From Linderina pennispora (lineage: Eukaryota; Kickxellomycota; Kickxellomycetes; Kickxellales; Kickxellaceae), in the NCBI RefSeq assembly GCF_002104995.1, contig NW_024468253.1, forward strand, positions 124,001 through 188,000: a DNA stretch of 64,000 bases, given 5' to 3'. Every line of letters begins with the position of its first letter. The first letter of the stretch is position 1. A program made the translations under genes and the position numbers. Below are positions 1 to 40,514 of the stretch, in pieces. Below the pieces are notes generated by a model. That model was given only the letters and a program-made list of their open reading frames with translations, did not search any database and was not told where the DNA came from.

Positions 1-901
1 ACGGCTCTCCTCGCCCTTTGCCCTCCTGCTCATTAACATCGCCCAGCATAGTGTTGAGCTTGCCAAATACAAACGTAACCAGCGTAAATAGCGTTGATTC
101 GGCAGCCTTGCGCAGCATCTCACTGAGGCGCATCTGGCAGCTCATGCTCAGCACCGTCTCCATGATCTCGCACACAACGACGTCAGTCAGATGGTGGCCG
201 CCAGGACTCAGGCACAACGGCACTGAGCACATTCAGGATCTGCATCAATACAGCCTCGTCAGATGCTGCATCGGTTGCCTCGAACCGACACTGCGTTACC
301 GCACGAGCTAGCTCCAGGAACACGGGCGCTGCTGCCGAGCGGCCAAAGTCAATGATCCCGTGGGCCAGAAACCGCTGCACGCTGACCAGAGTGCAGCGCG
401 TAATTGGCCCGGTTGTCTCTGCGTCGCGAATCACCAGCAGGAACGGATCGAGCAACTGCTGCGGGTCCATGGTGCGCGGATCCGACACTGCCATTGATTG
501 CCTCGCGCAAGAGCAGGAACGACTCGAGCATCATGATCCGGCTAACTGCATATGCATCGTCTTCGCTGTCGTCGTCCCTGGCTCCAAATGCCGCCATGCC
601 AATGCTTGCGCCAGCCTTGCCGAAGCTGCGTCGGCTGTTAAATTCGTCCATGTACTGCTTGATTTTGGCGCTGGTCCATACTGTGCTGTCCGTGCCCGGG
701 GCAGAGGGTGGTTCTAGCTTTGACTTGTGTAGGGCCTGGTGGAGCCCGGGCCAGCGGCTGCCGCCGACCCATCAGGGCGCCGATACCATCACGCTCAACC
801 ACTTCAGCCCACAGCGCATTCTTGCGTAGCTCCCGCACAACCGTGTCTATTTCGGCCTCAACCAGCAGCCGCCAGGCATCTGTCGACAATGCAGCAGTCA
901 T
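1..901 (-). CDS. GEA2: Sec7-family Arf guanine-nucleotide exchange factor (GEA1/GEA2/GBF1), N-terminal part
   Basis: N-terminal dimerisation/cyclophilin-binding region of the large Golgi Arf-GEF that loads Arf1 with GTP for COPI budding. The start is the ATG at 901-899. In order come a VVRELRKNALWAEV segment, a linker ending LHQALHKSKLEPP, DPFLLVIRDAETTGPIT, VSVQRFL, ASDEAVLMQILNVL, LSPGGHHLT, VCEIMETVLSM and MRLSEMLRKAAESTL; these match GBF1 in order and spacing. The gene runs off the left edge, so the Sec7 catalytic domain is not seen. Reading is continuous only if one extra base is skipped near 745, 490 and 207. At the last site the residues on both sides align to GBF1 without a gap, so it is not an intron. 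Divergent from eL18, with 325 bp between the start codons. Confidence 0.85.
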
Positions 902-1226
902 CCTTCAGTATGAGAGAAATATATGGAAAATAGTGTATGGTAGTGGAATTAGGACTAGAAAACAAGTGGTGATGCTGCCTAGCTGGAAAACGAGTCGGGT
1001 CTGCTGCCAGCAGCAGGGCGTCTGCGAGATGCATGTGTCGTGAGTTAATGGCGTGGCCCAATCATGTGCGACCGCTGATATCTGGGTTGCGAAAAATTAT
1101 ATCATCTGATCTAAAACGCTGGCAGTCCTGTGGGATTCAACCTCGGCTTTTTCCACACGCCCAGCGTAGAGCGCTTGACGAAACTTTCTTTCCAAAAAAT
1201 CCCAACTTTAGTTTATCGGATTCAAA
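902..1226. promoter_or_regulatory. Divergent intergenic region, Arf-GEF / eL18
   Basis: 325 bp lie between the start codons of the minus-strand Arf-GEF and the plus-strand eL18 gene, so both promoters must be here. The eL18 side has an AT-rich leader ending in tcaaaATG. I see no clear TATA box. Confidence 0.5.
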
Positions 1227-2269
1227 ATGGTAAAATATCGATGGATGCGGCGCGTTGGCGTTCTGAGGCATGAAGGCTGTGTCTGCGGGCTGAGATGGCA
1301 TGCGTTTTAGCGGACCGATGGATACGGGCGATCTGGCAGAGGACAGAGCGCAGAAATAATTTCTGCAGAGCCCATCGGGTGAAATTGACAGAGAGCTGAA
1401 TTTCGTGCTAGAGTTCGGGACCAGTGGGCGCCAATTGGGAGCGCGCTGCCATTTCACTCACTCGTTCCCAGCTGCAAACACCCCCACGTTCTGACCACCT
1501 ACGGCCAGAAACTGGGCGCTTTGTTTCAGAGGGGCATTTCGCGGAACGACGCAGAATCTCGCCCTGCACAACCCAGCCTTTGCCTCACGAGCAGCAACAC
1601 AGAAAGCCTAGCCTGCCTTTGAGCGGGAGAGATGGAAACAGAGCCCGCTTTATGATGGAACGCACCACAACTAACTCTGATGTGTCTGAACGACCACTGC
1701 CGTCCTTTTAGGGTATCGACATCGCCAAGAAGCACCAGCGGAACAAGAACCGTTCCGCTCCCGTGAGCGACAACGTCTACCTGCTGCTGCTGGTGAAGCT
1801 GTACCGCTACCTGGCTCGCCGCACTGACTCGAACTTCAACAAGGTCGTCCTGAAGCGCCTGTATATGTCGCGCATCAACCGCCCGCCCATGTCGCTGTCG
1901 CGCCTGGTGTCGCTGTCGAAGAACTCGGCTGCCCAGACCGTTGTCGTTGTCGGCACCATCACCGACGATGTCCGCCTGGAGGTTGTCCCCAAGATGTCGG
2001 TCGCTGCCCTGCACGTCACCAAGACTGCCCGTGCCCGCATCCTGAACGCCGGCGGTGAGATCCTTACCCTCGACCAGCTTGCTCTGCGCGCCCCGACTGG
2101 CTCCAACTGCCTGCTGCTCCGCGGCGAGCGCAACGCCCGTGAGGCCGTCAAGCACTTCGGCCGTGCCCCTGGTGTCCCTGACTCCAACACCAAGCCGTAC
2201 GTCCGCTCCAAGGGCCGCAAGTTCGAGCGCGCTCGTGGTCGCCGTGCCAGCCGTGGCTTCAAGGTCTAA
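1227..2269 (+). CDS. RPL18: 60S ribosomal protein eL18 (L18), two exons
   Basis: Large-subunit ribosomal protein eL18. The main exon (1712-2269) opens directly after a tttttag-type acceptor with [14 protein letters not shown] and continues through [27 protein letters not shown] and [11 protein letters not shown], ending [20 protein letters not shown]. It aligns to human eL18 from residue 2 to the end without a frameshift. Only the initiator Met is missing; I place it at 1227-1229, where ATG is followed directly by a donor (gtaaaat). That gives a 482-nt intron (1230-1711) with a ctaac branch point near 1672. A one-codon first exon is common for fungal ribosomal protein genes. The spliced protein is 186 aa (human 188). 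The exon 1 position is inference; the rest is clear. Confidence 0.93.
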
Positions 2270-38147: not shown

Positions 38148-38629
38148 GAATGAGAGCCTGTTCCTGAGGGCCGTAGTCTCTGAATAAACAATTATCTAGT
38201 GCAGTCACTTGCATTGACTGGTATCGGGGAACGGCGCTGCTGCTGCTTTTCCACAATCACAGCATTCCGGCAAATCACCGCATCCCGTGCTGTGTTGCCT
38301 TAACCGGCACACGCGCCTAAACCGCGTCGCAGATTCTGGTGTCATGCTGGGGGAAAAATTTTAGGGAGGGGACCGGTAAACAAAGCCGTGATGCAAAACA
38401 GCCCAGGTCCTCTCGTTTCCACTTTGTAAACTTGCTGTTTGCTTCTGCTTCCTGATGTTTTTGTATTAACCACGCATTCCCTGTCTAATAGCCTTTCCCC
38501 CGTTCGCATTTCAAACTCACAAAACTCCTCACCTATTTTACCAGCGCAAAATAACCTTATTTCTATCCTCTCTCGTTTGTCGTTTTCCCCCTTAAACTTA
38601 TTACACTATTTTAAAGCATTCTAGACCAT
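38148..38629. other. Intergenic, 482 bp
   Basis: Separates p24 and the kinase on the same strand. The second half is C/T-rich, as expected for the kinase 5' leader. Confidence 0.4.
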
Positions 38630-40514
38630 ATGAGCTCCCAGGTCATGCCTATTTCACAGGAATCCATCTCGCAGGAGGCTGCTGACGACATGGACGACCT
38701 CAACCAGCTGTTCCAGGACCAGCTTCTTGTAAGCCAGGTGCCGTCGAGCGTGTGGGGCGTCCTCCTATCCCTGACCCCTGAGGTTTACGACACAGTCTTG
38801 CTGGAGCGCACCAAGCTACAGCCCTTGGAGGACGGTGGCCCGGGTAGCTTTGGATACCATATTGGGCGGCATAAGACATGTGACGTGCGCATCCAGAACC
38901 CGCACATCAGCAACCACCACTGCCTGATCTACCGCGTGTCTTCATCGCCACCGCGGGTGTACCTGGAGGACACGAGCACGAACGGGACGTTTGTGAACGG
39001 GCGGCGTGTGGGCAAGAGCAAGCCGGTGGAGCTGCGGGACGGGGATGAGATCCAGCTGGTGCGGTTCCAGGCGAGCAAGGGGATGAAGTTCTTTCCACGA
39101 CCGGTTTTTCGTGTTCCAGAACCTGGCAGTGCACCGGACGGAGCCGTGTTTGTTCAAGCAGAGCTACCTGCTGGCGGACCACCTGGGCAAGGGAGCGTTT
39201 GCAGAGGTCAAGGTGGCAATCAACCGGGTGACGGGGCAGCGGTATGCGGCCAAGATCATCGACCGAAACAAGATCACAAAGATCGAGAAGCGGCGCAAAA
39301 TGGACAAGAACTTCCAGATCGAGACGTCGATTCTGTCCCGGGTGCGGCACCCGGCGATTGTGCAGGTGCATGGGGTGTTCCGCGAGCACGACAAGCTGTA
39401 CCTGGTGCTGGACCTGGCGGCGGACGGCGAGCTGTTCGACGAGATTGTGCGGCGGGAGTTCCTGGGGGAGCGCGAGACGCGGCGGGTGCTGCTGCAGCTG
39501 CTGCTGGCGATCCGGCACCTGAACCGGCTGGGGGTGGTACACCGCGACATCAAACTGGAGAACATCCTGCTGGCAGACAAGGAGCAGCTGCGCATCAAGC
39601 TGGCAGACTTTGGGCTGGCCAAGATAGTGGGCGAGCAGACATTCATGAAGACCGTGTGCGGCACGCCGATGTACGTGGCCCCCGAAGTTCTGAAGGTGCG
39701 CACGCAGGGTGAGTACGACCGCCAGGTGGACATGTGGAGCCTGGGCGTGGTGCTGTACATCTGCCTATGCGGCTTCCCGCCGTTCTCCGACGAGCTGTCG
39801 CCGCCGCCCATGCGCGACCAGATCATCGCCGGCATGTACGCATTCCCTGCGCCGTACTGGGACAGCGTGTCGCCCGGCGCCATGGACCTGGTGCGCCGTA
39901 TGCTGGCCGTCGACCCTAAGAAGCGCATCACCGTCGACGCAGCCCTGGCCCACCCGTGGCTGGGCGCGCGCCGCCGCGGCAACGTCTGGATACTGCATGG
40001 CGACGACTTTGTGGTCCTGGACCCGGACGCCGACGACAGCCAGATGACGCAGAGCGTTACCGTCGAGTCGTCGCAGCAGCCGTGGTCGTGTGCCAATTCG
40101 CTGCACAGCGCCGAGTCGCAGGATCTGCCGCCCAGCCCGCTGTCGCCGGGCGCTGCCAACACCGGCCGACCCGGGTCGGACTCCAGCGGGTGCATGGCAG
40201 CTTCGCGCGGACAAAAGCGCAAGATGGGCTCGCTCCTGCGCTCGCACTCGGACCTGGACGTCCAGACGACCACCAAGCGGTCGATGCATTTCCGCAGAAT
40301 GTCGTCTGATGCCACAAATAGCCAGCCAGTCTTCAACATGTCGCTGGAGAAAAGCTGCACCAGGGCCATTGGCCCACTGGCGACTAAGGTGCCGCTTCTG
40401 ATGGTGTACCCGCAGCCGCTGCCGCGGCCTGGTGCCCGCGAAGATGTGCCCAAGATGTGCTCATTTGATGCAGAAGCCAGAGCGGAGAATGCGGCAAAAA
40501 AGAAAGTCATTTGA
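38630..40514 (+). CDS. FHA-domain checkpoint kinase (Chk2/Cds1/Rad53-like)
   Basis: Ser/Thr kinase of the DNA-damage response, about 627 aa. N-terminus with SQ sites (PISQESISQEA), an FHA domain (GYHIGRHKTCDVRIQ, NPHISNHHCLIYRV, STNGTFVNGRRVGK), then the kinase: GKGAFAEVK loop, YAAKIID lysine, HRDIKLENIL catalytic loop, DFGLAKIVG, CGTPMYVAPEVL, DMWSLGVVLYICLCGFPPFS and RITVDAALAHPWL. The C-terminal tail is Ser-rich with KRSMHFRRMSSD. FHA followed directly by kinase matches Cds1/Chk2. One extra base near 39100 separates the two domains: the FHA frame continues in error, while the other frame reads DRFFVFQNLAVHRTEPCLFK into the kinase. The kinase part (1.4 kb) is intact. Confidence 0.9.

Follow-up and report, generated by a model that had tools for sequence, protein, structure and literature searches.

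Why should so many genes in the first 39 kb of a stretch of fungal DNA appear to change reading frame, and why should these changes nearly always have the sign of a gained base? The window, which is the whole stretch of DNA analyzed (64,000 nucleotides), comprises bases 124,001-188,000 of contig C168 (1,346,905 bases) of Linderina pennispora, a fungus of the Kickxellales. The genome that holds this contig spans 26.17 Mb in 222 contigs. An earlier note on this DNA had counted 21 sites with a +1 jump and two with a +2 jump in nine recognizable gene families to the left of 39.1 kb, and had preferred consensus error biased toward insertions in part of the contig, with genome-wide programmed +1 frameshifting as the alternative. 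As judged from sequence comparisons, the extra bases are most probably consensus errors of the L. pennispora assembly and not biology (rough probability, 0.95). The preferred proposal is supported because the proteins of another L. pennispora assembly show no break at any of the ten sites compared, at which the deposited C168 models are damaged, and because a second haplotype was assembled separately within the clean stretch of the window.

The sign of the shifts was assessed with a hidden Markov model (HMM) of coding and non-coding frames, trained on C168:1-258,000, the window included, with an equal prior for a gained and a lost base. Over this region, the HMM called 132 shifts, 108 of insertion type and 24 of deletion type. 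Window positions 1-39,150 account for 32 calls, comprising 28 of insertion type (+1) and four of deletion type, which can be read as +2 or -1 (sign test, p=1.9e-5). As a control, 66 insertions and 78 deletions were planted in C168:10-46 kb, which had also been used for training. The HMM recovered 58 and 64 of them, respectively, with the correct sign in all 122 and a single unmatched call, and in this control it is without bias of sign. Two of the four deletion-type calls in the window resolve to two gained bases: the call in COQ5 corresponds to two separate gains against the protein of the same species, and that in the S1 protease to two successive +1 steps when the three frames are read by eye. 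The other two, at 2840 and 36453, are ambiguous between +2 and -1. The insertion sign and the rough number of shifts agree with the earlier count. The exact split differs somewhat, as 21 calls fall in the nine families (18 of +1 type and three of +2/-1 type), eight in less conserved genes and three in a gene at 2529-3938. About 15 further +1 sites had been proposed in five less conserved genes; the eight calls there include none in the gene at 13563. Four of the sites named as examples (5325, 31455, 33845 and 34675) each have a call within 35 bases, while a fifth, at 28935, was missed by the HMM and seen in the three-frame view. The statement that nearly every conserved gene is hit needs a correction: the genes for eL18 (1763-2269) and p24/EMP24 (37683-38147) are open although they lie left of 39.15 kb.

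The decisive comparison is with proteins of the same species: Kelch protein P0001 (EC988_003156, 668 residues), COQ5 protein P0211 (289 residues) and a partial Prs1 protein, P0091 (412 residues). P0001 and P0211 are reported on a contig of 3,886 bases and P0091 on one of 1,250 bases, and they therefore do not come from C168. Alignments were frameshift-aware, penalized gained and lost bases equally, and placed the following sites:

30568..32575, minus strand: Kelch/galactose-oxidase-like gene, with four single extra bases near 31873, 31668, 31457 and 30871 (alignment to P0001).
33058..33928, minus strand: COQ5, with one extra base each near 33838 and 33579 and a pair of extra bases near 33514 (alignment to P0211).
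34159..35805, minus strand: Prs1 (ribose-phosphate pyrophosphokinase), with three single extra bases near 34851, 34673 and 34390 (alignment to P0091).

Identical residues number 645 of 668 for Kelch, 285 of 289 for COQ5 and 404 of 412 for Prs1. Across the 1369 residues of the three genes (96.6-98.6% identical), nine single-base gains and one two-base gain were found, amounting to 11 gained bases vs no lost base, with no residue gap. The two-base gain, near 33514, consists of two bases gained 6-13 nt apart. At the protein level, the breaks are absent from the second assembly in all three genes and at all ten sites.

The deposited proteins of C168 are affected at the same places. At nine of the ten sites, or no more than 12 residues away, a run of residues is missing from the deposited model, and a run of mismatches directly follows the tenth. 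The dropped runs measure 5-102 residues. In the Kelch model (P0002), they lie at or within 12 residues of all four sites, and in the COQ5 (P0212) and Prs1 (P0117) models, residues are dropped or misread at the extra-base sites. Such damage is expected of a gene finder that bridges a false frameshift.

The distribution of shifts along the contig is uneven. The number of insertion-type calls per coding kb varies among C168:1-82 kb (0.16), 82-100 kb (1.81), 100-122 kb (0.43), 122-163 kb (1.51), 163-188 kb (zero) and 188-258 kb (1.16), and shifts are frequent over much of C168:82-258 kb. Within the window, positions 39,151-64,000 contain 8.1 kb of coding sequence without a single shift, against an expectation of about 12 from the rate on the left. 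The earlier description of the right-hand part as free of shifts is accurate as far as the window reaches, but 39.1 kb merely marks where a clean island begins on the left. The island is flanked by calls at window 39,094 and 65,536 and ends near 65.5 kb, 1.5 kb past the window, where shifts resume. Most of its length in the window is covered by one further contig:

41621..63223, strand not assigned: contig C88 (21,796 bases), a second haplotype that was assembled separately; it lies within the part of the window free of shifts.

The ends of C88 were placed by BLAST at C168:165,621 and 187,223, and it matches window 54,000-58,900 at 98% identity over 4.9 kb. This is one of six stretches that were examined for a second-haplotype contig, and it carries no call. 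A second haplotype is also present for C168:42-47 kb, which has one call (C134 at 99% and C156 at 97%). No allele-level second contig was found for window 33,000-36,400 (six calls), for C168:220-225 kb (two calls; only an inverted 1.8-kb copy on C168 itself) or for C168:93-98 kb (eight calls; long matches elsewhere of 68-73%). In sum, a haplotig accompanies none of the three stretches with six, two and eight calls vs two of the three with zero, one and one.

Second haplotypes are not confined to this contig. Genes have one copy on a long contig and another on a short one in the pairs C57/C163, C112/C153 and C1/C78; comparison of the three pairs over about 3.8 kb shows 29-97 substitutions and 3-14 gap positions, and the assembly therefore holds second haplotypes. 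No genome-wide shift rate can be taken from the matches to Kinase, AMP-binding, Aldedh and P450 (the best 126 of 211, 14 of 80, 11 of 38 and 92 of 140, respectively) because choosing the best candidates favors whole genes. Methylation in L. pennispora is mentioned in two papers (PMC8298701; PMC11258239), the second of which cites Mondo and others 2017, and these mentions suggest that the genome was made from PacBio reads. The sequenced strain is probably ATCC 12442, of which a version 1.0 genome is named in a third paper (PMC7466969).

How the bases were gained is a separate question, to which haplotype merging is a probable answer, held with appreciably less assurance than consensus error as such. 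In affected stretches, the assembler would merge two slightly different haplotypes, and the consensus would gain single bases at or near the sites where the merged haplotypes differ. Haplotypes assembled as separate contigs would instead give clean sequence. Gene prediction would then drop residues next to the extra bases or misread them, false introns being the simplest route. There is a precedent in early FALCON, which, according to one passage of its source, merged similar haplotypes and added indels at some of the nucleotides that differ between them, and phasing was used against these indels (PMC5632298). C168 would resemble that case in having errors where haplotypes were merged, which phasing avoids. 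It differs in that the passage speaks of indels in general, whereas C168 shows mostly gains, and in that PacBio reads and FALCON are only the likely making of the L. pennispora genome. A second parallel is the Kastor case of gene-fragmenting long-read errors, where, as an excerpt describes, draft frameshifts were likewise revealed by intact relatives (PMC12007338). That case concerns small genomes, whereas the errors discussed here are patchy along a fungal contig for which separate haplotypes were assembled.

Several observations weigh against this account. The second assembly was compared as proteins only; its DNA probably lacks the extra bases because gene finders make no 1-base introns. 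Distant orthologues give a less clean picture: near two of the sites, two alignments with Coemansia/Martensiomyces show a loss of 2 bases, which changes the frame as a 1-base gain does. Against the distant Kelch protein P0003, two of the four sites appear as single gains, a 2-base loss is placed near another, and the protein ends before the fourth. Prs1 against P0092 shows two of three sites as single gains, with a 2-base loss near the third, and COQ5 against P0213 shows two of three sites, P0213 starting too late for the first. The sixth of the stretches, C168:71-76 kb, has a single call and no second-haplotype contig, and the best match found elsewhere reaches 86% over 1.4 kb; homozygosity could account for its cleanness. 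At the end of C134, compared with C168:51.7-53.0 kb, the difference has the opposite sign, with many bases missing from C134 that are kept in C168 and, where it overlaps, mostly in C156. Literature searches found no paper describing the assembly of the L. pennispora genome. Finally, all nine single-base sites can be read as a duplication of a neighboring base, which plain error would equally give, and a model of paired synonymous alternatives reaches a log-likelihood of -33 vs -6.7 for duplication and -12.5 for random bases. That model excludes nonsynonymous pairs by construction. As built, it cannot yield three of the nine sites, and its log-likelihood is mostly the floor value on those three.

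Two simple versions were dropped. The rule that every stretch lacking a haplotig is dirty is broken by C168:71-76 kb. The strict model in which two synonymous alleles stand side by side scored poorly, in a test that is hard on the model as built. The six of nine single-base sites readable as two synonymous alternatives do not separate the models, since simulated insertions give 44-46%.

The strongest competitor shares the conclusion of consensus error and differs only in its cause. Insertion-biased long-read error in poorly polished stretches, with no merging of haplotypes, is a tentative alternative that would explain neighbor-base duplication as stutter, and all nine single-base sites fit it. 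The earlier remark that sites often sit in short base runs agrees with this, and C168:71-76 kb is nearly clean although no second-haplotype contig was found for it. Plain error does not predict, however, that a haplotig should cover most of the clean part of the window, nor that one should be absent from all three stretches with two or more calls.

Programmed +1 ribosomal frameshifting in many genes, as in Euplotes, is very improbable here, although it would account for shifts that are mostly +1 in otherwise conserved proteins whose genes are expected to work. Euplotes-type sites are kept within a species and in its mRNA. In excerpts of the Euplotes literature, stop codons specify the +1 shift (PMC10235951) and candidate +1 frameshifts were identified from transcripts (PMC4759687). 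Both systems have many +1 shifts in ordinary genes, but the L. pennispora sites are not tied to stops, only one of the nine single-base sites having an upstream-frame stop at the shift, and they are not seen in the second-assembly proteins. A faint common feature, C then T at the break, was noted by eye in four of the ten compared sites. That the sites are not kept within the species, and that shifts occur in patches of one contig and are lacking over the stretch assembled as two haplotypes, speaks against the genome-wide programmed frameshifting raised earlier. Scarcely more credible is a recent, strain-specific variant in which the extra bases truly exist in the strain that was sequenced, but not in the other isolate, and are bypassed by +1 frameshifting or removed at the RNA level.

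Real decay, by which the genes would be pseudogenes or part of a degenerate haplotype in the sequenced strain, is equally hard to credit. Genes broken here and whole in the other assembly would suit it, but decay would give lost bases and nonsense changes as well, whereas the three compared genes have gained bases and lost none at their high identity, and breaks of the same kind recur in many genes over a long stretch. Short introns are very improbable as a general explanation: the deposited models drop residues around the sites as if introns were predicted, and the Chk2 join leaves room for a very short intron at that one site, but at all ten compared sites, only one or two bases are superfluous, and Rae1 and NELF-C/D align through their joins. 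Further genes of the window were placed as follows:

1..885, minus strand: Arf-GEF (Gea-type), 5' part, running off the left end; four +1-type shifts near 18, 204, 494 and 749 (HMM).
4542..5537, minus strand: Rae1/Gle2-like WD40 gene; two +1-type shifts near 4833 and 5359 (HMM).
8369..10032, plus strand: NELF-C/D (TH1); one +1-type shift near 8577 (Pfam TH1, HMM).
16506..18206, plus strand: NDC10_II-domain gene, copy A of two Ndc10-like copies in the earlier note; three +1-type shifts near 16946, 17383 and 17841 (PF16787, HMM).
28608..29314, minus strand: trypsin-like S1 protease; +1 near 29069 and +2/-1 at 28838 (Pfam Trypsin, HMM, three-frame view).
36343..37138, minus strand: Swp1/ribophorin II; one ambiguous +2/-1 call at 36453 (Pfam Ribophorin_II, HMM).
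38630..40514, plus strand: Chk2-like FHA-kinase; the last +1-type shift near 39094 (HMM, structure alignment).

The joins of the Rae1, Arf-GEF and COQ5 genes had been described as aligning to known proteins without a gap. Both Rae1 joins are gapless against the solved human mRNA export factor, and COQ5 shows no residue gap against P0211. For the Arf-GEF gene, which has further HMM shifts in C168:121-124 kb, the match to yeast Gea2 covers two of the four joins in the window, and both are gapless. The NELF-C/D join is likewise gapless in the alignment to solved NELF-C/D, and the S1 read-through gave no match against the PDB at a very strict cut-off. The Chk2 join differs: the read-through is 8 residues longer than human Chk2 at the join, which makes this site less certain. 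A stop in the new frame of the Chk2-like gene lies at 39084.

Possible Ndc10-like genes occupy window 16506-18206, 20963-27616 and 53759-59040. The read-through of the first matches NDC10_II (PF16787), and seven other stretches that were scanned gave no match in Pfam. Judged by eye, the stretches at 20963 and 57665 resemble paralogues, the left-hand one broken and the right-hand one open. COQ5 adjoins Prs1 (window 33058-35805), and the Coemansia proteins P0114 and P0155 carry domains of both in one model; the neighborhood may be conserved and prone to false fusion.

Repeated and rearranged sequence was also observed. A repeat of about 240 bases at window 30211-30446, SINE-like in size (short interspersed nuclear element), has dozens of copies in the genome, mostly 81-90% identical (at least 42 matches), and a related copy lies in C168:42-47 kb. 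A search with window 28000-40500 listed this repeat alone and missed even the window itself, so that it has no bearing on a haplotig there. C168:214968-216806 and 221527-223366 form an inverted local duplication of 1.8 kb at 97% identity. Its copies differ by 48 substitutions and five single-base gaps, three of them extra bases in one copy and two in the other. An HMM insertion call falls 9 bases away from one of these three, which lends weak support to consensus error. A piece at C156:40001 maps reversed to C168:25,809-25,210, whereas its flanking pieces map forward; the haplotypes may differ by an inversion here, or the contig may be misjoined.

Clusters of insertion-only frameshifts in assemblies that bear haplotigs should be checked for merged haplotypes before recoding is claimed. 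If the shifts were real, they would represent massive strain-specific recoding in a fungus. As it is, the deposited L. pennispora proteins from such stretches can be damaged, and the three compared here have UniRef among their sources.

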